Made by a program: the position numbers and the translations under genes. A stretch of 13,237 nucleotides of DNA from Flavobacteriaceae bacterium (GTDB lineage Bacteria; Bacteroidota; Bacteroidia; Flavobacteriales; Flavobacteriaceae): NCBI GenBank assembly GCA_016763715.1, contig JAESTG010000314.1, positions 1 to 13,237 on the forward strand, in the 5' to 3' direction. Shown one piece after another: positions 2,152 to 13,237 of the stretch. Within the stretch, counting starts at the first letter, position 1. Each line of letters starts with the position of its first letter. The notes under the pieces were generated by a model. It was not told the DNA's origin, did not search any database, and saw only the letters and a program-made list of their open reading frames with translations.

Positions 2152-2486
2152 GATAGTTTTACCATACTGGAGTCAATTGTAACCAGAAATTCTCACCCAC
2201 CGCTCAACTCTATTTGAATACGTATTTCGTCTTACTCTTTTTTAAAATGTATTGTTAAAAAGAAAGAGGTGAGAACTCTGCTACAATCAAAACAACATAG
2301 CATGTAAATAACACGAATACAACAATTTAACAACGTAGTAGACATCCAGTTACTTGAAATTCTCACAGATTGACTTATCTCAAATATTTATTATATTTTT
2401 CATTTTATCGATGAAACGCAAAAATATTAGGTAAAGTGTATAATTTTTGTATATTGAAGTACCCAAATTACAAAAACCTACTTACT
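2152..2486. other. Intergenic region between two regulator genes, with TTCTCAC repeats
   Basis: This 335-bp stretch has no gene I can support. It holds two direct copies of GAAATTCTCAC (2186-2196 and 2356-2366) and an inverted copy of the core (GGTGAGAA at 2268-2275). It also holds an imperfect T-rich/A-rich inverted repeat (about 2232-2266), which may help end the upstream transcript, and a candidate promoter near its right end. Confidence 0.5.
2370..2399 (+). promoter_or_regulatory. Candidate Bacteroidota promoter for the 7TMR-DISM regulator
   Basis: TTG at 2370-2372 and TATATTTT at 2392-2399 are 19 bases apart. This resembles the Bacteroidota pattern TTG / TAnnTTTG, with one mismatch in the last base. 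It would give a leader of about 80 bases before the ATG at 2487. In such AT-rich DNA a chance match is quite possible. Confidence 0.3.
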
Positions 2487-3794
2487 ATGAAGTCAGTATT
2501 GATCCTTTTTACCCTCATTTTTTGCCTCAACGCTGAAGCAAAAAAGAAAGTACATTCTGTGGATGTCTCCACCAAGAGTATAAACCTCAAATCCATTGAA
2601 AACAGTGCCCTAAAGGTACAAGACGATTCTGTATTTAATGATCCAGATAGTGTAGTCAATCCGTCTTCAAATATGACTTCAATTGATAGCAATTTCTATT
2701 ACAACAATGGTTTCGGTAATTTTGGTGAGGGATTTAGTTTTTCGGAAAATTCCTACAAATTTGTTCTTGTCGACAACAATTCAGCAGGGGCTTCATTGGA
2801 AGATAATTCAATAGTAAGAAATGAGGCTTCTATAGATTCTCATACAATTTTTAGACAAGGACTTTATTATGGGTTTGCAGTAATGTTGGTTTTACTCAAT
2901 TTGGTTTGCTTCTTTCTGTTTGAAGAGAAAACCTTTTTATATTATTCATTATCTCTAGTTACGATGTCTATATTACTTTTTTTTAGCGACGGATTGTTTT
3001 CGCTATTAGGATTGGACAATTTAGAGCTTCTTTTGAATAACCAAACGTTGTTTTCATTTATAGCAACCATTTTTGGAGCACTCTTTGTATCAAAATACCT
3101 AAATCTCAATGAATTTCTCCCAAAGCTTAAATATATCACTATTACCTTATTTGGGTTATCGGCTATTTTAATGGCTATGGGATGGGCTTCTCAAAACCCA
3201 ATATATTTCATAGGCACCAATGTTGTGTTGTTTACTATACTTACCACTTATTTTCTGGCGGGTATTTATCTATTCAGCAAAAAGAACTATGCTAAGTTTT
3301 TAGTTATCGCTTCATTTATCCCTTTGCTATTTTGTATTGACTTCTTTGTGTTGAATCCACTTGGAATTAACTTTTTATCAACACAAACCACACATATTAA
3401 AGCGGCTAGTATTGCTGAAATGCTTATCATAACCTATGCTATCATGTTTCGTATGCAATCCATCAAAGAGGAAAACATTATAAGACAGACAGAGCTACGT
3501 ATTTTCATAAAAAGACAAGAGGCCAGTTCGGTTAGAAAGAAAACTGAAAAATTAGTGGAAGATGTTTATTTGGAAAATTTGATCATGCATTACGATCTTG
3601 ACGGATTGGAAATTAAGTTATTACAATATATTTCCGAAGGAAAAGAAAATCATAAAATAGCGAGAAAACTAAAAACCACGGAACACGAAATTGAAGAATT
3701 AACCAAAGACTTGTACGAAAAGCTCGAAATAGGAGAACAAATTCAGCAAGACTATCGTTTGGTGGATTCCCAACCAGACTATATTTATAACTAG
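2487..3794 (+). CDS. 7TMR-DISM sensor protein with C-terminal HTH domain
   Basis: I chose the ATG at 2487 (435 residues) because it opens directly into a signal peptide, residues 1-18 (VLILFTLIFCLNAEA). The longer frame from a GTG at 2436 would bury this peptide. Residues about 20-120 are a low-complexity extracytoplasmic stretch. Residues about 122-324 form a seven-helix membrane region that opens with the 7TMR-DISM signature (FRQGLYYGFAVMLVLLNLV and a following YYSLSL). A helical linker leads to a C-terminal LuxR-like helix-turn-helix at about 370-420 (LEIKLLQYISEGKENHKIARKLKTT). The predicted role is a membrane-bound one-component regulator that senses an extracellular ligand and binds DNA from the membrane; neither ligand nor targets are visible. 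The canonical extracellular 7TMR-DISM ligand-binding domain is not recognisable. It follows another membrane-anchored HTH regulator on the same strand. Confidence 0.8.
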   Translation: MKSVLILFTLIFCLNAEAKKKVHSVDVSTKSINLKSIENSALKVQDDSVFNDPDSVVNPSSNMTSIDSNFYYNNGFGNFGEGFSFSENSYKFVLVDNNSAGASLEDNSIVRNEASIDSHTIFRQGLYYGFAVMLVLLNLVCFFLFEEKTFLYYSLSLVTMSILLFFSDGLFSLLGLDNLELLLNNQTLFSFIATIFGALFVSKYLNLNEFLPKLKYITITLFGLSAILMAMGWASQNPIYFIGTNVVLFTILTTYFLAGIYLFSKKNYAKFLVIASFIPLLFCIDFFVLNPLGINFLSTQTTHIKAASIAEMLIITYAIMFRMQSIKEENIIRQTELRIFIKRQEASSVRKKTEKLVEDVYLENLIMHYDLDGLEIKLLQYISEGKENHKIARKLKTTEHEIEELTKDLYEKLEIGEQIQQDYRLVDSQPDYIYN

Positions 3795-3902
3795 CATCAT
3801 TATTTAACAAAAACAGTCTGAATTAAATAGCTATAAAGATATTTTCCCCCATTAGCGTTCCATAGAACCTAATTGACTATTGTTTATAATTAGTATGGCG
3901 AG

Positions 3903-3934
3903 AAAGGATAAGTGTAAAAGCTTATCCTTTTTTT
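3903..3934 (+). terminator. Terminator between convergent genes
   Basis: AAAGGATAAG (3903-3912) and CTTATCCTTT (3921-3930) form a perfect 10-bp stem with an 8-base loop, running into seven T residues at 3928-3934. It ends the 7TMR-DISM transcript. The right arm overlaps the stop codon of ccsA on the other strand, where the U-tract is short, so action in both directions is possible but weaker for ccsA. Confidence 0.85.
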
Positions 3935-6900
3935 ACATAGTGTTTTTTATACTGAAAGTAGGATAACACACTTAAAAGTAGCATGGTCCCAAAAAGGTAG
4001 AAAACGAAGCTAGGAGTTACAGGTACATCCCCACTAGCATATGAATGTAGCCCAGTTAGATAGAAATTAACTCCAAAATAGGTCATCATTATTGACGCAA
4101 AGGCAAAAACTGCCATCACACTAAAAAACCATCTTCCACGAAGTCCAGGAACTAGTCTCATGTGAATTACAAATGCATAAATCATAATACTAATGAGCGC
4201 CCATGTCTCCTTTGGGTCCCATCCCCAATAACGACCCCAACTCTCATTTGCCCATTGTCCACCTAAGAAATTCCCAATGGCTAACATCACAAGACCAACG
4301 GTTAGTACCATCTCAATAATAATGGTGAGTTCTTTTATGTTGAGATCCATTTTAGCTTTGTTCTTTTTGGTAGTAAAAATCATCAACAGCATGGTTGTAG
4401 CACCAAGTATCCAACCTAAAGCGAATGGACCATAACTAGCAACAATCACTGCCACATGAATCATTAACCAGTAACTATCTAAAACTGGCTGTATGTTTGC
4501 TATTGCAGGATCTAACCAATTTAAATGTGCTACCCACAACAACATAGCGGCTACAAAGGCGGTAGACGCAACGGTTAAATCGCTTTTTCTGCCAAAAACT
4601 AGACCAAAAAACACCGTCGCTGTACTTACATAAATAACACTTTCATAGGCATCACTCCAAGGGGCATGACCACTAATATACCAGCGTGCAACTAGCCCCC
4701 CAATCATAGATGCAAAAAGCATCCATACACCAACCTTTAAAGTTTTTATAGCAAAAACAAGCCATTTTTTTTCAACAAAAATTTGCACAATCACAAACGT
4801 GAACATCAAAAACCCAAACAAGGCGAAATAATGGTATAAGCGATTGAATAAATTTGCTTTATTGTACGCAATCTCAATACCTACCTTCTTTTCTGAAGGC
4901 AAAACGTCGGAACCATATTTTTTCTGATAGTCTATAATAAGGTCTAATGCCTTATCTGCCTCTGTATAGTCATTTGTACGTTTGGCATAATCTAGCGCAA
5001 GACGATAGGCCGAAAGTATTTCAGAGACAAAGACAGAATCCTGTCCTTTAATATTGGCACTCCCCAATTCGGGTCTTGAAATCCATTTATTATTTTGATC
5101 CCCTGGAATAGGGAATAACTTAAGTAGTCCACCACTAAGTGCCTGATCCAAAATGTACGTCTTCTCGTTCAGCTTTATAAAATCCTTCTCAAATTGATTA
5201 GGGTTGGCCTTAGAGGTAGCTTCCACTAAATAAGGACCTAATTTATTTCGCATTTGACCATCTAGCAAATCAACTATTGCAGCTTCTGAAACATCTTTAG
5301 GAACCCCAATAATTCGTTTAATACTGTCATTCTTCCAATCCAATTTCATGATTGGAACTTCAAACCACAATTGAGGAATTTCTGTCATGGAAAGAAAAAC
5401 TTGATTTGCATTCAAATCGCCAAACTTATCTTCCCCACTAATTTTTCGTAGAATCTCACTTGCAAACGTATTTATGGGCTTCATACGACCATTGTCCTGT
5501 ACCACCAATCGACCAAACCTTTCGGCGTGTACTTTGTCAATAGTATTTGCTACAACTATAGAATCTATCTGATCTAAAGTAGCACGACGCGCATGTGATG
5601 TTTCTTGAGCAATCCCAGAAAAAGAAAACAATAAAACAATTATGGTAATCAATTTTGCCTTTTTATCTTTCACCTTATTCAACATTCTCTTCAGATCAGC
5701 AAATCGAGTATTTCGATCAAACAGAATGGCCAATAGTCCGAAATACAATAAAAAGTAACCAATATATGTAATCCAAGTCCCCCAGAAATCGTGATTCACA
5801 GACAACACTGTTCCTTTCTCATCAGGATCAAATGAAGCTTGGAAAAATCGAAATCCTCCATGATCCAGAATATTGTTCATATAGACATCATAGTCATAGA
5901 AATCTGTATCGCTAGTATTTACAGTAAGTTTACTTCGATATGCTGAATAGCCTCTATCAGTCCCAGGATATTTGTCAGCTATAAAATCATTTAAAGTAAT
6001 ACTGAATGGTAATTCCAATTCTTTAGCTCCATAACTAAGATAGACCTTTAAACCTGCAATATCAACTCTTACAGGGTCTGTAGTCATAAATTTACCTCCT
6101 AAAAGTTCAACGGTTTGAGTCTCTCCCATAGAATTTAATTCCAAAACCAAAACATCCTGATTCGTTTTTTCAGGTAAGGCTACTTTTACGGGACCATATC
6201 TTCCTTTGGCCACAGGCTCCGGAATTACAAACTGCATCCCTCCCATGCTATACAAGGCACGCAACGCTAAATTTTGAACGCTATCCTTTACAAATGAATT
6301 TCGAAAACGTGTCATAATTTCTTGCACATCGCTTCCTCGTACCTCAGTAGGATCAATACCCGCAGCTCTCACTTCGGACATGTTCATATAAAACCCATCA
6401 AAAGGGGCTTCAATATTATATGCGTCCTCTCCAATTGAAATATTAATAGCTCCAACCGTAGGTTTATCTAGTGCAATAAGAACATTGTGAAGATTTGCAA
6501 CCTCTCCTCTTTTGAGCCAATGATCATGCCCTTGTCCAGAACCGCTTTCTACAATCTTCAAATATTCATCCCCATCTTCAGAAGCAATAAAACCTTCTTT
6601 CACATTAGACACAAAGTCTTTGTATTTAATAGTAAGTGGTTGTTTGTTATAATCGGTATTGATGGTAAAATCGTTATTGAGTCTTTCAGATAAGTCCAAC
6701 TCCTCTAAAGCAAGATTCCTCCTTTGAGCAACCCCATCTACTTTATAATCACCATCAATAAATGTTTTTAAATAGGTTTCGGTAGAAAGAAAAGAGCTCT
6801 CTGTAGCCCCTTCTCTTATAGGCATCAATCCTTCATACCCAATATACCTTGTAACAAATGCTCCTATTAAAATGAGAATAAACGACAAGTGTAAAGTTAA

Positions 6901-7146
6901 CGTTGCCCACTTCTTCTTTTTATATAATCTGAATCGAAAAATATTTCCAACAAAATTGATTACAAAAAACACCATAATGGCCTCAAACCACAAAGTATTG
7001 TATATCATCTCTCTAGAATATGGAGTTGGAGATGTTTCGGCGGCTCTATCTAAAAAGGTTCCTATGGCCATCGCAACAGCAAAAACAATAAATAAAACAG
7101 CGGTGAGACGGGTTGAAAAGAGGATGGAAGCAAGTTTCTTTTGCAT
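3922..7146 (-). CDS. ccsA: Fused cytochrome c biogenesis protein ResB-CcsA (CcsBA)
   Basis: System II cytochrome c synthetase: it carries haem across the inner membrane and attaches it to CXXCH apocytochromes. I chose the ATG at 7146 (1074 residues). An in-frame TTG at 7164 is possible but overlaps a promoter-like TAAATTTG. The N-terminal ResB-like part has three membrane helices, with a histidine at H86 (TLHLSF), then a large periplasmic region and a helix at about 457-476. Residues 496-514 (KLITIIVLLFSFSGIAQ) look like a signal peptide kept at the fusion point. A second periplasmic part leads into CcsA, with about eight or nine helices and the tryptophan-rich haem-binding WWD motif at W970-D977 (WGRYWGWD). 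The candidate haem ligands are all present: H86 and H897 in membrane helices, H827 (HAPWSDAYE) and H1034 (GLHSYASGD) flanking WWD. The length suits the fused Bacteroidota form. The gene ends in a terminator and lies downstream of a truncated haemoglobin gene. Confidence 0.93.
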   Translation of the reverse strand: MQKKLASILFSTRLTAVLFIVFAVAMAIGTFLDRAAETSPTPYSREMIYNTLWFEAIMVFFVINFVGNIFRFRLYKKKKWATLTLHLSFILILIGAFVTRYIGYEGLMPIREGATESSFLSTETYLKTFIDGDYKVDGVAQRRNLALEELDLSERLNNDFTINTDYNKQPLTIKYKDFVSNVKEGFIASEDGDEYLKIVESGSGQGHDHWLKRGEVANLHNVLIALDKPTVGAINISIGEDAYNIEAPFDGFYMNMSEVRAAGIDPTEVRGSDVQEIMTRFRNSFVKDSVQNLALRALYSMGGMQFVIPEPVAKGRYGPVKVALPEKTNQDVLVLELNSMGETQTVELLGGKFMTTDPVRVDIAGLKVYLSYGAKELELPFSITLNDFIADKYPGTDRGYSAYRSKLTVNTSDTDFYDYDVYMNNILDHGGFRFFQASFDPDEKGTVLSVNHDFWGTWITYIGYFLLYFGLLAILFDRNTRFADLKRMLNKVKDKKAKLITIIVLLFSFSGIAQETSHARRATLDQIDSIVVANTIDKVHAERFGRLVVQDNGRMKPINTFASEILRKISGEDKFGDLNANQVFLSMTEIPQLWFEVPIMKLDWKNDSIKRIIGVPKDVSEAAIVDLLDGQMRNKLGPYLVEATSKANPNQFEKDFIKLNEKTYILDQALSGGLLKLFPIPGDQNNKWISRPELGSANIKGQDSVFVSEILSAYRLALDYAKRTNDYTEADKALDLIIDYQKKYGSDVLPSEKKVGIEIAYNKANLFNRLYHYFALFGFLMFTFVIVQIFVEKKWLVFAIKTLKVGVWMLFASMIGGLVARWYISGHAPWSDAYESVIYVSTATVFFGLVFGRKSDLTVASTAFVAAMLLWVAHLNWLDPAIANIQPVLDSYWLMIHVAVIVASYGPFALGWILGATTMLLMIFTTKKNKAKMDLNIKELTIIIEMVLTVGLVMLAIGNFLGGQWANESWGRYWGWDPKETWALISIMIYAFVIHMRLVPGLRGRWFFSVMAVFAFASIMMTYFGVNFYLTGLHSYASGDVPVTPSFVFYLFGTMLLLSVLSYFQYKKHYVKKG

Positions 7147-7161
7147 TCTTACGAATTTTGG

Positions 7162-7169
7162 CAAATTTA
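7162..7169 (-). promoter_or_regulatory. Possible -7 element upstream of ccsA
   Basis: Read on the minus strand the bases are TAAATTTG, an exact match to the Bacteroidota TAnnTTTG element. No TTG is found at the expected distance upstream. Transcription would start a few bases before the ATG at 7146, which argues for that start over the TTG at 7164. It may be a second promoter inside an operon, or chance. Confidence 0.25.
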
Positions 7170-7216
7170 GTTAATTAGACACAGAATTTCTAGTTAAATC
7201 TGTTAAGGTATCTGGA

Positions 7217-7618
7217 TTATTTTTGATCTCTATTTTTCCGTGCTTCGAACATTTTTAGATGTATAAAAGTACTCATATTTCTTGCTCGATTTTTGGCTAC
7301 TTGTGCAACGTCTCCCTTAAATAACTCATCTATAGTCTCAAACCAGAGATTGAGCCATACGCCAAAATGCATTTCATTAATACTTCCGTGGTATGTTGTA
7401 TCCACTTCAACATGCTTTTGCAGCGGATCTCCTATGTATTTTTTACTGAAAAATAAGTTGCTTACCCAAAAAGTAGTGAGCCTTTTAAAATGCTCTTCCC
7501 AATCTTTAATAACTCCATTAAATATAGGGCCTAGTAAATCATCTTTCCGTACTTTTCCATAAAACGTTCGTACGAGAAGAAGTACATCTTCTTCTGAATT
7601 TATATCATTCATTTCCAT
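7217..7618 (-). CDS. Group III truncated haemoglobin
   Basis: At 133 residues it has the usual length of single-domain truncated globins. The group III features are visible. Y20 in FYGKV is in the B10 position, and LGPIFN follows at 29-34. H43 in DWEEHF is in the E7 position, FW is at 50-51, the proximal haem ligand H69 lies in LQKHVEV (F8), and W88 in the next helix is probably the G-helix tryptophan. Group III globins bind haem and O2, and are tied in some bacteria to nitric oxide or microaerobic metabolism; the role here is not known. An internal ATG two codons in (7612) is an equal choice of start. The stop lies about 70 bases before the ATG of ccsA on the same strand, so the two genes are probably co-transcribed, with a haem theme in common. 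Confidence 0.92.
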   Translation of the reverse strand: MEMNDINSEEDVLLLVRTFYGKVRKDDLLGPIFNGVIKDWEEHFKRLTTFWVSNLFFSKKYIGDPLQKHVEVDTTYHGSINEMHFGVWLNLWFETIDELFKGDVAQVAKNRARNMSTFIHLKMFEARKNRDQK

Positions 7619-7625
7619 TAGAAAG

Positions 7626-7658
7626 CAAAGTTAACTATTACGAACACACTATTTACAA
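7626..7658 (-). promoter_or_regulatory. Promoter of the truncated haemoglobin gene, nearly leaderless
   Basis: On the minus strand TTG (7658-7656) lies 22 bases ahead of TAACTTTG (7633-7626), an exact match to TAnnTTTG at allowed spacing. The start codon at 7618 is only eight bases beyond the element, so the mRNA would have almost no leader. Starting at the second ATG (7612) would leave a leader of a few bases. Confidence 0.45.
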
Positions 7659-7756
7659 TTTAAAGTACAAATAGAGAACTAGAAATCTTTCTAAAAAATC
7701 TACTTCTAAAAGTTTTAAAGCTTTATACCTTTTCTTTAAAATTGTATTTTAGCCCT

Positions 7757-8535
7757 ATGAATATTGTAATCCTAGGTTTTGGAAATGTGGCGCAACACTT
7801 GGTTCGTGCATTCTTGGATACCGACAATGTAAATATTGTTCAAATTTATAATCGATCTGAGATTACAAATCCTCCTATTAAAAATTGCACCACAGTACTT
7901 TCTGAATTGATAGACGCAGATGTTTGCATCATCGCATTACCCGATGATGTAATTCCTAATTTTTCAAAAAAACTACCTTTCAAAAATCGTTTGGTGGTTC
8001 ACACTTCGGGTAGTGTTCCTATGAGCATTCTTTCAGAGAAAAACAATACTGGTGTCTTTTATCCATTGCAAACCTTTTCCAAGGATCGGATTGTCGATTT
8101 TAGATCTATACCCATTTGTATTGAAGCTAAGAATGCTTCGGACTTAAAAACCTTGAAGAAATTAGGAGATAGTATTTCTGAAAAGATAGTTGAAATAAAT
8201 TCTGAGCAACGTAAAAAGCTTCACCTAGCAGCTGTATTTGTAAATAATTTCACCAACCATCTATATCATATTTCTGAAGAAATCATTGCCGAGAATAGAC
8301 TCGACTTTATCTTCTAAAACCTCTTATCCTAGAAACGGCTCAGAAAATGGGTAGTTTATCCCCAAGTGAAGCCCAAACTGGCCCTGCCAAACGAAATGAT
8401 ATTAAAACAATTGAGAATCACCTGCAATTACTGAACGATGCTCAACAATCTGGCACTTTGGATGCATCTGTGCCAGAAATATACACCTTGTTAACCCAAT
8501 CGATATTAAAAAAGAATCATGGAAAAAAGCTATAA
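7757..8535 (+). pseudogene. Rossmann-fold/DUF2520 oxidoreductase-like protein, frameshifted
   Basis: Two frames together encode one protein of about 258 residues, the normal size of Rossmann/DUF2520 proteins. The first piece (7757-8317, 186 residues; ATG at 7757 preferred over an in-frame TTG at 7742) has the nucleotide-binding GFGNVA at residues 7-12. It also has the family signatures HTSGS and GVFYPLQTFSK, and the start of the helical DUF2520 part (KLHLAAVFVNNFTNHLY). It stops early at TAA 8315-8317. The second piece, in the next frame from about 8305 to the TGA-type end at 8535, carries LLKPLILETAQKM and SEAQTGPAKRND, the expected DUF2520 remainder. One missing base near 8305-8314 explains the break. 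The family resembles F420/NADP-dependent reductases and ketopantoate-type dehydrogenases, but its substrate is unknown. It overlaps the phosphatase gene by 17 bases, as expected for an intact coupled operon, so a sequence error is as likely as real decay. Confidence 0.85.
8305..8317 (+). other. Frameshift site in the DUF2520 gene
   Basis: Frame 2 reads D-F-I-F-stop here, while frame 1 reads L-Y-L-L-K-P-L on into the rest of the domain. The coding sense moves by one missing base (or two extra). For example, one more T before CTAAAACC would give DFIFLKPLILET without a stop. No classical slippery heptamer or downstream structure was seen. Confidence 0.75.
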
Positions 8536-9052
8536 AGAATACCTTCAACATATCACCACCTTTATTTTTGACGTAGACGGCGTTCTAACAGACGGAACTA
8601 TTATAGTAAACACAGAAGGAGAAATGTTTCGAACCATGAATATTAAAGATGGGTACGCTCTTAAAACAGCCGTAGATCATCAATATAACGTGTGTATCAT
8701 TAGTGGCGGCACTAATGAAGGTGTTCGTAAGCGTCTACAGGGCTTAGGTATTACCGATATTCACTTGGGAGCCCATCATAAAACCGAAATTTTAAAGGAA
8801 TACTTTAGTGCCAATCAAATTGGACACGACAACGTACTATACATGGGTGACGATATTCCCGATCTTGCACCAATGAAAATTGTTGGACTACCTACTTGTC
8901 CGCAAGACGCAGTGCCAGAAATAAAGGCTATATGTAAATACATCTCTCATAAAAAAGGAGGTAGAGGAGCCGTTCGTGACGTCATTGAACAAGTACTCAA
9001 AGTGCAAGGAAAGTGGATAAGTAATGGCGATGCAAGTGCCAAATACGACTGA
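8519..9052 (+). CDS. kdsC: KdsC-like HAD-superfamily phosphatase (3-deoxy-manno-octulosonate-8-phosphate phosphatase type)
   Basis: The 177-residue protein matches the length of tetrameric KdsC phosphatases, which lack a large cap domain. The HAD motifs are present: DVDGVLTDG with nucleophile D18 and acid/base D20, IISGG for motif II, K residues in the AHHKTEILKEY stretch for motif III, and GDDIPDLAPM with D111 and D112 for magnesium binding. The C-terminal KKGGRGAVRDVIEQVL tail is typical of KdsC and reaches into the neighbouring active site of the tetramer. The expected reaction is removal of phosphate from Kdo-8-P in lipopolysaccharide core synthesis; related enzymes act on other sugar acids such as Neu5Ac-9-P or KDN-9-P, and the sequence alone does not exclude these. 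The start at 8519 lies inside the end of the DUF2520 gene, suggesting translational coupling. A prenyltransferase gene follows after 14 bases. Confidence 0.85.
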   Translation: MEKSYKEYLQHITTFIFDVDGVLTDGTIIVNTEGEMFRTMNIKDGYALKTAVDHQYNVCIISGGTNEGVRKRLQGLGITDIHLGAHHKTEILKEYFSANQIGHDNVLYMGDDIPDLAPMKIVGLPTCPQDAVPEIKAICKYISHKKGGRGAVRDVIEQVLKVQGKWISNGDASAKYD

Positions 9053-9066
9053 TTAATTAAAAAATA

Positions 9067-9667
9067 ATGATGCCCAAAATCTTAGCCTATTTTAAGCTCA
9101 TAAGACCCATCAACATATTAATGATTATCTGCGTTCAGGTGATTATTAAATATGTTCTTTTCGGAAAAAGCGCGGTGATAATAGCAATGAATGATTTTCA
9201 GTTTGGTCTACTAGTTTTAGCTTCCACACTAATTGCCGCAGCAGGGAATGTTGTCAATGATATTTTTGATGTCAATGTGGACTCCATCAATAAACCTGAG
9301 AAGGTCATTATTTCACGAGTAATTTCTGAAAAAGCGGGATATAACTTTTACATTGTTCTTAGTGTTTTGGGTGTCGCTGCTGGATTTTACCTATCCAATC
9401 AATTAGGTCGCCCAGGATTGACAGCCATTTTTATTATTATTTCGGCATTGTTGTATATCTATGCCACTCATTTGAAAGCTATATTACTTGTTGGAAATGT
9501 GCTAATCTCCCTTCTGGTAGCAATGAGTTTACTTGTGATGATTTTATTCGATATTTTTCCTGCTATCGACACCCAAAATAGGGAGCTACAGCTATTATGT
9601 ACCCGAATCGTTTTAATGTACGCTGGCTTTGCATTTTTTATCAATTTAATTCGAGAGATTGTAAAAG
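9067..9667 (+). CDS. UbiA-family prenyltransferase, 3'-truncated at the contig join
   Basis: About 200 residues are genuine, of roughly 300 expected. Several membrane helices are visible. The first aspartate-rich UbiA motif is N64-D65-x-x-D68-x-x-x-D72, followed by SINKPEK, which coordinates magnesium and the prenyl diphosphate. The second motif normally starts REIVKD-x-x-D; here R196-E197-I198-V199-K200 is present and the sequence then switches into unrelated DNA. The open frame runs on to 9867, but those residues are antisense to TSP3 repeats and are not protein. Flavobacterial homologues in this context are usually named geranylgeranylglycerol-phosphate geranylgeranyltransferase; the true acceptor is not shown by the sequence. 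ATG 9067 and ATG 9070 are both possible starts. The gene lies 14 bases after the phosphatase and is in one operon with it. The Maf-type gene I would expect next is absent because of the join. Confidence 0.85.
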
Positions 9668-9670
9668 TCG
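9660..9670. other. Chimeric junction between flavobacterial and gammaproteobacterial DNA
   Basis: Up to about 9667 the plus strand encodes REIVK of a UbiA prenyltransferase. From 9667-9669 upward the minus strand encodes D-N-D-D-D-T-D of a thrombospondin type 3 repeat. The minus-strand frame runs on only six residues into the flavobacterial side before a chance TAA (9646-9648). At most one base (G 9667) can belong to both sides. Both genes are cut in mid-motif and face each other tail to tail, with no repeat, integrase or attachment-like site. Confidence 0.85.
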
Positions 9671-11361
9671 TTATCATCATCGGTATCAACCGCATCTGGA
9701 ATTTTATCACCGTCGGTATCAATCGGTGTACTTGCTCCATTATTCGGATCTGTACCGGCTGCAACTTCATTAGCGTTGCTGATACCATCACCGTCAGTAT
9801 CGTTATTTGGATTAGTATTCTCAGCATCCAGCTCATCATTAACACCGTCGTTATCGGTATCAATTAATGAAGATTCCAGAGCGTCGATTTTGCTGTCGCC
9901 ATCGGTATTCGTTAAGCCTTCAATATCATCATTTTTACCATCACCATCAGTATCTTTTAATAATGGATTGGTGCCGCGCGCTTGCTCGACAGTATTACTA
10001 AGACCATCTCCATCACTATCATTGCTTGCATCATTATTCGAACCATCAAACTCATCAGGCACACCATCACCATCAGAATCTTGATTTTCAGGCTCTAACG
10101 CATCGATAATCCCATCACCATCGCTATCAATCGTACCTTCTTCACCATCACTTTTACCATCGCCATCAGTATCAGGATTATTTATATCAGTACCATTGCT
10201 AGCTTCATCATTATTACTAACGTTATCACCATCGGAGTCTTCTAAAACAGTAATAGTTACGAGTGCAGAGTCTGTATCTCCAGACTTATCAGTGATTTGA
10301 TATGTGAAACTATCGCTACCAAAGAATTCAAGATTGGGGGTATAACGCACAACGGATCCAACCGTTGAGATAGTGCCGTTTGCGGGGGTTGTAAAGGCTC
10401 CCGCTGAGACCGGAGTATCAAGAGCAACATCATTTTCTAAAACATTAATTTCAACAACGTTATTAGCTGTATTATTTTCAGTAACGCTTTCATAATCATC
10501 TACAGCTACCGCAACACCAACATCAGGAATTCCACCTAAAGTAGTTACAATAATTGCTTGCTGCTGATCTGAAGTTACTGTCCAAGCCATTGCTGATACA
10601 ATGTCTACAGCACCGAATACATCACCTACATCGACATGGGTATCTGTTTTAGTACTTAATTCAGAACATACCAAACCCTCAGGGGTATACGCATAGCTGC
10701 CTGAAGTTAACTCAGAGCCACTGCCTTTATAAATACATACTCCCCAACCATTAAAAGTCGCATTGACTAATCCCTGATCAGAAAACTGAGCTCCACCATG
10801 ACTAATACCCAGAGCAACCGAATTGTCATCATCGATTGTGTAAAGCTCAATATCATGATTTGAAACAGAGCCACGAATAAAGAAAAAATCATCACCTGCA
10901 CTTAAAACGTCTTCATCAAGATATTGAATAAATTGTAAATCACCTAAATTGCTGCCTACGTCTGCCGTAAAGGTAATAACATTTCGCATTTGTAGGGAAT
11001 CATTTGCAATAGAACTTTCAATTGACCAATTAATAGTATTGGCACTAGCTCCTGTGAAGGAACCTGAACTACGCACCTTATCTTCAGAAACTAAAGAAGG
11101 GGAGCTTCCTGAAAGCCGTTGAGCAGCACCGCTGATTACAACATATGAATGATAAGCATATGCAATATCTTCACCTTTACGAGTTGCACCAGGGTCTGTA
11201 ATTAATACTGTATCAGTCTCGCCAGCATCGCCTACGTCCACACTAAAAAAGCCCCCCTGGTCTGATGTTTTATCGTTATCAATAACAAAAGCAAAGGACA
11301 TTTGAGAAATTAATAACATTCCCCCCAGGAGCATCCTAATGAAGTTCGGATATGTGATCAT
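9667..11361 (-). CDS. Secreted cadherin-like/thrombospondin type 3 repeat protein, 3'-truncated at the join
   Basis: There are 565 genuine residues from the ATG at 11361; six more, up to a TAA at 9646, come from the foreign DNA. Residues 1-24 are a signal peptide (basic start, then [16 protein letters not shown]). A beta-rich domain of unknown type spans about 25-284. Residues about 285-373 are a cadherin-like tandem domain ([46 protein letters not shown]). Residues 375-565 hold eleven calcium-binding TSP3 motifs of the D-x-D-x-D-G type, such as [13 protein letters not shown]. Proteins of this build are exported adhesins or matrix proteins of marine gammaproteobacteria, often ending in a GlyGly-CTERM or similar sorting tail; any such tail is lost here. 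A GAAGG Shine-Dalgarno site lies ten bases before the ATG. The specific function is unknown. Confidence 0.85.
9670..10242 (-). repeat. TSP3-coding tandem repeat tract
   Basis: The plus strand shows irregularly spaced CCATCACCATCRGTATC-like units, the reverse complement of codons for D-T/S-D-G-D-G. Eleven units lie at uneven distances of about 33 to 80 bases. The repetition reflects coding for calcium-binding loops and is not a CRISPR or mobile repeat. Such tracts are prone to recombination and misassembly, and the contig join lies at its edge. Confidence 0.8.
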
Positions 11362-11648: not shown

Positions 11649-12116
11649 TCACCTAACCATTTGATCAAAGCCTAATTCGTCTGTACTCATTTCCGCTTGC
11701 TTCACAATTTCCACTTGTAAAGAAACGGGCCCAGCCACCTCAGACTCAAACTCAATAAGGCCTAGCGATTGGTATTTAAGTTTAATACTTGGCGTACCTA
11801 GCAAGGTATAACCAGACTTAGTGTAGTTATAGATTTTGCTATATAAGGTATAGCTTTGGTCTTGGTTCAACTGTGCAATCAGTTCGACTTTATAACCGCC
11901 TAAACCTTCTTCGGCTAATGTCGATGGCTCTCCTTCCAATAGAATGAAAGGTGCTTTTTCAAACTCAACCTGCTCCGCAATCGATAAACTAGCATCTACC
12001 TGTAATACCTTTTTGCTCACATCAGCAGAGACTGTTATTAGCGCTAATACACCATAGATAGTGGCAATAAAAGTGGCTTGCTGCCAATTTAAACTCAATT
12101 TCAATAGTTTGTTCAT
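11649..12116 (-). CDS. Small exported or membrane-anchored protein of unknown function
   Basis: I do not recognise this 155-residue protein. After a basic start, residues 14-31 are hydrophobic (ATFIATIYGVLALITVSA) and could be a membrane anchor or a signal peptide cut after VSA at 31. The rest is acidic and looks beta-rich, with alternating strands such as YKVELIAQL, YTLYSKIYNY, SIKLKYQSLGLIEFES and VSLQVEIVKQ, which suggests a small extracytoplasmic beta-sandwich. There are no cysteines and no lipobox. The ATG overlaps the tilS stop as ATGA, and an AAGGTGA ribosome site (complement of 12124-12130) lies inside the end of tilS, so the two genes are translationally coupled. A functional link with tRNA modification is not implied. 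Confidence 0.75.
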   Translation of the reverse strand: MNKLLKLSLNWQQATFIATIYGVLALITVSADVSKKVLQVDASLSIAEQVEFEKAPFILLEGEPSTLAEEGLGGYKVELIAQLNQDQSYTLYSKIYNYTKSGYTLLGTPSIKLKYQSLGLIEFESEVAGPVSLQVEIVKQAEMSTDELGFDQMVR

Positions 12117-13237
12117 TTTAAAATCACCTTATATTCAGCGAACCAGCCAGACTGGCCTTCGTTTACGCAATAACCCTGGCAAACAAATAATCCGGGGATA
12201 GCGGCTATTTCATTCTTCTCTTTATGCACAATAATTGGCCAGTGCTCTCGAACCCAACTTGGCACATTGTAATCTTGCCACCACTTTTTCATCTTCCGAG
12301 TTGAACGCCCAGAAGGCTTTGCGATATCACCCGCTTGCCAGTTTCTGACCCTATATTGCCCTGGTATTAAACTAAAGCTATCAACTTGCTCATGACAAAC
12401 TAACTTACCTAAAAAGCAATCCAGATCCTCACCTTGCCATTCAGCTGCTCTATCACTTAATGAATCATCATTAAGCCTTACTCTATTAAAAGTATCACTA
12501 TCAATTAAATACAAAGAATTTTGATAGCGATATAAAGTTGATGATGACCAACTAACCTTGGGTTCACCATCTGATCGAGCAAGAACCATATCAACATAGA
12601 TACTTTGCATTTGTATGGCAGAAGGTAAAATATCCACATATTGGGCAAGCCAAGCGCGCAGATAACTCAAGCTAGCTGCTTGATCAAAATCCTGAATCAA
12701 TAACAAATTAAAGCTGGGAATATCTTTCAAAGCTGGATGGATTTTTATATCCGCTGGTTGCTGCTCAGTATTTAAAACTGTCTTGTCGTTTATTGAAGCC
12801 AGCAATAAGCTCTGTAATAAGCTTTGCTCGTGTTGAATAGTATTAATGGTGCGGGATAGCGATCTCTTCTGTTCTGGATAACGCTGCCAAATTTGTGGCA
12901 ACAATTCATTGCGCCACCAGTTTCTATCTATCTTAGAATCTTGATTCGATTCATCCTCAACCCAGTTAAGTTGATGATTTTTGGCGTATTCAAGGAGTTG
13001 ATTTTTTTCGATATTTAGAAGAGGCCGCAATATTTGGCAGGCATTATCTCGAGATAAAGACCTTTGCTTAGGAATACTCGCTAAGCCGGTTAAACCGCTG
13101 CCACGAATAGCACGCATAAAAAAAGTTTCAATCTGATCATCCAGATGATGCCCTTGCAGTAATACATCATTAGGGCCACAGTGTTTTGTGAATATGCGAT
13201 AACGTGCAGAACGAGCAGCCTGCTCTAAACCATCAGA
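12113..13237 (-). CDS. tilS: tRNA(Ile)-lysidine synthetase TilS (5' partial)
   Basis: TilS uses ATP to join lysine to C34 of the CAU-anticodon tRNA-Ile, creating lysidine so that AUA is read as isoleucine. The frame is open to the window edge, so the Met at 13117 is internal and not the start. 374 residues are present; the N-terminal SGGxDS PP-loop lies beyond the window. Visible are LEQAARSARY, the catalytic-core GHHLDDQIET (encoded at about 13127-13153) and RGSGLTGLA. A middle helical domain follows (about 12470-12870), then the C-terminal TilS_C domain (PGQYRVRNWQAGD, KMKKWWQDYNVPSWVREHWP, about 12150-12370), which contacts the tRNA acceptor stem. The size and the two C-terminal domains fit the long proteobacterial form. 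It ends in an ATGA overlap with the next gene. Confidence 0.95.
   Translation of the reverse strand, partial: SDGLEQAARSARYRIFTKHCGPNDVLLQGHHLDDQIETFFMRAIRGSGLTGLASIPKQRSLSRDNACQILRPLLNIEKNQLLEYAKNHQLNWVEDESNQDSKIDRNWWRNELLPQIWQRYPEQKRSLSRTINTIQHEQSLLQSLLLASINDKTVLNTEQQPADIKIHPALKDIPSFNLLLIQDFDQAASLSYLRAWLAQYVDILPSAIQMQSIYVDMVLARSDGEPKVSWSSSTLYRYQNSLYLIDSDTFNRVRLNDDSLSDRAAEWQGEDLDCFLGKLVCHEQVDSFSLIPGQYRVRNWQAGDIAKPSGRSTRKMKKWWQDYNVPSWVREHWPIIVHKEKNEIAAIPGLFVCQGYCVNEGQSGWFAEYKVILK

Follow-up and report, generated by a model that had tools for sequence, protein, structure and literature searches.

Does a contig assigned to a Flavobacteriaceae bacterium pass, at about base 9667, from the DNA of one phylum into that of another, and if it does, is the join a feature of a genome or an artefact? 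The window examined here is the whole 13,237-nucleotide stretch of contig JAESTG010000314.1 (assembly GCA_016763715.1). A preliminary description had proposed such a join and had read it as an artefactual chimera, so we examined the two broken genes, the ancestry of each arm and the context of the join in turn.

Position of the join and the genes that it breaks

Positions 9067..9666 of the plus strand hold the first 200 codons of a UbiA-family prenyltransferase gene (PF01040). The gene is cut at the join, and its frame runs on to 9867 without homology. Residues 1–200 are 79–82% identical to the nine closest relatives (P0121–P0129; 305–311 residues long), and a full-length relative, L001, is identified by NF009512 as a geranylgeranylglycerol-phosphate geranylgeranyltransferase. 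The loss of homology is abrupt: in an alignment of the window protein with these nine relatives, mean column identity falls from 0.98 over residues 191–200 to 0.11 over residues 201–210, and, against the closest relative, residue 200 is the very last one in the local alignment. Lysine 200 (K200; 9664–9666) is the last codon with sense on the plus strand. As had been described, coding breaks after REIVK, where the second aspartate motif should follow. An aspartate stands directly after the RE-x-x-K motif in 118 of the 120 homologues listed, the remaining two lacking the pattern used; its codon is GAT in 16 and GAC in eight of the 24 Flavobacteriaceae loci matched by the pattern (six of the 30 loci were unmatched). 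The window has GTC at this place, which, together with the loss of homology after K200, indicates that the plus-strand gene makes no sense beyond 9666, base 9667 still being compatible with it.

We considered whether UbiA truly continues beyond that residue, as the frame is open and BLAST reaches residue 249 against P0191; this was rejected on the low identity at residues 201–210 and the end of the closest-relative alignment at residue 200. The 66 further open codons (9668–9867) lie antisense to the TSP3 repeats, and an automatic gene caller would give a false 266-aa fusion protein here.

From 9668 onward the coding is on the minus strand. The gene here (9667..11361) lacks its 3′ end at the join; the 5′ part that remains encodes a protein of secreted type that combines TSP3 repeats with a bacterial Ig domain (PF17963 and PF18884). 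The final repeat reads DTDDDND and is followed by FYNLSN and a stop codon. In 30 comparable repeats from the 120 homologues listed, the following position is taken by G 25 times, by S and K twice each, by N once and never by F; the F in the window, unlike all of these, indicates that the TSP3 gene also loses its sense at 9667. Both genes have thus lost their 3′ ends, as proposed, ubiA being cut after codon 200 and the TSP3 gene broken after DTDDDND.

The homology of the two flanking genes ends abruptly at one and the same point, and the join, between bases 9666 and 9668, is really present in the sequence. Only base 9667 (G) is compatible with both genes. By the protein homology of the two sides, the overlap is therefore at most one base, in agreement with the preliminary description.

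Ancestry of the two arms

The left arm, from approximately 2436 to 9666, carries genes of Flavobacteriaceae type: a 7TM sensor gene, a cytochrome c assembly/ResB gene, a 133-aa open reading frame (ORF), a DUF2520 gene, kdsC and ubiA. It is collinear with L038 (from genome G001) and L039 (from G157), at protein identities of 55–82%; the two ORFs that precede 2436 matched nothing in the L038 and L039 stretches compared. On the strength of its named relatives, Aureisphaera and Aequorivita among them, we assign the group from which this arm derives to the Flavobacteriaceae. The 133-aa ORF (7217–7618) has no Pfam or NCBIfam match; a 71% identical counterpart stands in the same place in L039 and none is present in the L038 stretch, so its presence varies among relatives. 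The DUF2520-family gene (7742–8532) is split by a frameshift near 8308–8311, its two pieces matching, in two frames, one continuous 253-aa protein of L001; either a genuine mutation or an error in sequencing could account for this.

Of the 397 genomes in the same family as G001, 381 had a UbiA match, and we compared the neighbourhoods of the 30 best loci, each approximately 2.2–3.6 kb. The ubiA gene runs on past the break point in all 30, and kdsC lies upstream in all 30. In 29 of them maf follows on the same strand, in some cases with approximately 600 bases between the two genes; in the thirtieth (L025), the contig ends inside ubiA. Downstream of the ubiA of the window, maf is missing. The TSP3 protein, the 155-aa protein discussed below and TilS had no match in any of the 30 loci. 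It had been suggested that finding the same arrangement in an independently sequenced genome would count against an artefact; it occurs in none of these 30 loci, drawn from the 381 genomes with a match.

At the far end of the right arm, 12113..13237 of the minus strand holds a gammaproteobacterial tilS (PF01171, PF09179 and PF11734), cut by the contig end. The view that the TSP3 gene lies next to a proteobacterial tilS needs amending: an ORF of 155 aa with no family assignment (11649..12116, minus strand) lies between the two. Among 120 listed of 557 matches, the best relatives of TilS besides itself are P0242–P0244 (80–86% identity) and the best named one is from Oleispira sp. (69%), the other named relatives being from Thalassolituus, Vibrio and Thalassotalea. 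Against Flavobacteriaceae, the protein gave local matches at 29–40% identity in 80 of the 80 genomes searched, mostly over the N-terminal 120–190 residues, and each of these genomes carries its own type of tilS. These relatives point to a right arm that is gammaproteobacterial and Oleispira-like. Comparing the arms separately, with flavobacterial relatives for UbiA and this distribution for TilS, bears out the claim that the two sides of the join differ in ancestry at the level of phylum. With the fall in UbiA identity at residues 200/201 and the loss of TSP3 sense at the same point, the proposal that the contig joins two phyla at about 9667 holds.

Identity between TilS and P0242 is uneven, with 157 of the first 160 residues identical and lower values beyond, down to 21 of 40 at residues 241–280; strains may have recombined, or the pattern may simply be that of ordinary conservation by domain.

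The TSP3 protein is laid out as an N-terminal part followed by the bacterial Ig domain and the TSP3 repeats. Its N-terminal part is 47% identical to P0008 over 261 columns, and its N-terminal 280 residues matched none of the 80 Flavobacteriaceae genomes in a search run without a positive control. The N-terminal part (10522–11361) also recurs in proteins of approximately 320 residues that lack TSP3 repeats; PF07589, a domain that we take to be PEP-CTERM, is present in one of them (P0009). The same N-terminal part is thus paired with different C-terminal parts.

Neither the right arm nor the join matched any plasmid, E. coli genome or phage at the DNA level. The plasmid collection yielded TilS proteins only, at less than 60% identity, in 55 records; the viral scans found no locus, and no phage record matched 9067–10400.

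A real event could in principle account for these observations, namely an illegitimate insertion, of recent date, that placed gammaproteobacterial DNA in a flavobacterial ubiA, or the reverse. The letters of the window are compatible with such an event, and apart from the one frameshift on the left the coding DNA of the two arms is elsewhere intact. However, an insertion would break a gene that is continuous in all 30 relatives inspected and would bring in the tilS of a second phylum, whereas all 80 of the Flavobacteriaceae genomes searched have their own. We regard a real join of this kind as very unlikely. Its most specific form, a very recent illegitimate recombination between phyla, with one base of microhomology, that cut the flavobacterial ubiA and brought in the gammaproteobacterial tilS region, appears a shade more improbable still.

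Composition, elements and repeats around the join

Base composition had been expected to mark the join, and it does not. The strongest single trinucleotide change point lies at about 3980, with a log-likelihood gain of 162 versus 137 at 9667, and falls within a gene that runs uninterrupted, and in collinear order, in L001. Composition was therefore set aside as a locator of the join; used alone, it would have placed the break wrongly, at about 3980. The DNA left of this change point (window positions 3922–4000) is richer in A+T. The proposed comparison of tetranucleotide profiles likewise fails to separate the arms by z-score correlation (−0.02 to 0.44 between left-arm pieces, 0.17 to 0.36 between left and right), and the frequency distances lean only mildly towards the join (0.232–0.352 left–left, 0.339–0.489 left–right). 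The G+C content is 33.6% on the left and 39.8% on the right, with kdsC, on the left, also at 40%. A real insertion would sit comfortably with this lack of a sharp compositional difference between the arms. A change in the style of ribosome sites had also been reported. The right arm does have the motifs GAAGG and AAGGTGA and the left-arm leaders are mostly A+T-rich, but the right-arm motifs come from two starts only and two left-arm leaders also hold AGG, leaving this a weak sign.

The statement that no element or border repeat accompanies the join was confirmed, and this again argues against a real insertion. No integrase or transposase domain was found in the 11 ORFs scanned with Pfam (two of which matched no family), the window contains no tRNA, and there is no convincing border repeat between 8600 and 10700. 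The join thus shows none of the marks of a horizontal element or genomic island (integrase, transposase, tRNA site or convincing border repeats). The repeats in that interval are the TSP3 array, whose first copy starts at 9665, and short or weak pairs. Two of these pairs flank the join yet lie far from it, a direct one at 9188/10468 (15 nt) and an inverted one at 9050/10206 (74%).

The repeat-rich right side of the join favours a different explanation, in which an assembler or scaffolder joined two correct contigs in error, without any physical chimeric molecule. Assemblers are known to fail by building chimeric contigs, either from k-mers that are shared or from hypothetical ones that they add themselves, according to the part of the source drawn on here (PMC7299287). 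A k-mer merge would, however, leave a shared stretch of k-mer length, and at most one base is common to the two sides; nor does the contig contain any N. On balance, this kind of error is possible but somewhat doubtful.

Origin and meaning of the join

Taken as a whole, the join is almost certainly an artefact of one kind or another, and this is by far the simplest reading. The preliminary description reached the same view, which is supported by the two-sided break, the differing phyla, the missing maf and the lack of an element. Because the two sides share at most one base, the joining of fragments by ligation or by template switching is a likelier origin than a k-mer merge, and we consider it probable that the contig became chimeric through the physical joining of two unrelated fragments. 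DNA of an uncultured member of the Flavobacteriaceae (to 9666) would have been joined to that of an Oleispira-like gammaproteobacterium (from 9668), either through end ligation while a library or clones were being prepared, or through template switching between molecules in the course of whole-genome amplification. One or a few such chimeric molecules may then have entered a thinly covered contig. Any one of amplification, ligation and assembly may have been at work.

Comparison with known types of chimera, for which we draw on parts of each published source, is informative here. Intermolecular chimeras from multiple displacement amplification (MDA) resemble the window in bringing unlinked segments together at a sharp joint with little or no shared sequence (PMC1855051 and PMC4595205). 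In one study, when the joined segments lay over 10 kb apart, only 34.8% of inverted and 27.6% of direct MDA junctions showed complementarity of at least 2 bp (PMC1855051); given such low complementarity, a one-base overlap fits intermolecular joining and amplification could still have been responsible. In another, the overlaps peak at 6 nt (PMC4595205), which would speak against MDA and not against ligation. Unlike the join in the window, moreover, the MDA chimeras studied in these papers lie within one genome and are mostly inverted.

Ligation-based preparation yields chimeric reads in microbial DNA standards also (PMC13141652), and these share with the window an artificial join that would come from a ligation step; end ligation should require no common base. 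The chimeras in the portion of that report used here are mostly inverted repeats in single nanopore reads, whereas the window is an assembled contig that joins two phyla. Chimeric contigs from metagenome assemblers, finally, are similar in that one contig holds sequence of more than one species (PMC7299287). The species that they join are often related, and the k-mers behind them are shared or hypothetical, in contrast to the different phyla and the single shared base at most of the window.

The join is thus most likely an ordinary artefact and not a real biological feature. Claims of gene neighbourhood or gene transfer across 9667 should not be taken as real, and the advice to discard neighbourhood claims across this point is upheld. 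The predicted proteins at 9067–9867 (plus strand) and 9646–11361 (minus strand) should not be trusted as they stand. The join itself has no biological importance, and its value is that of a practical warning.
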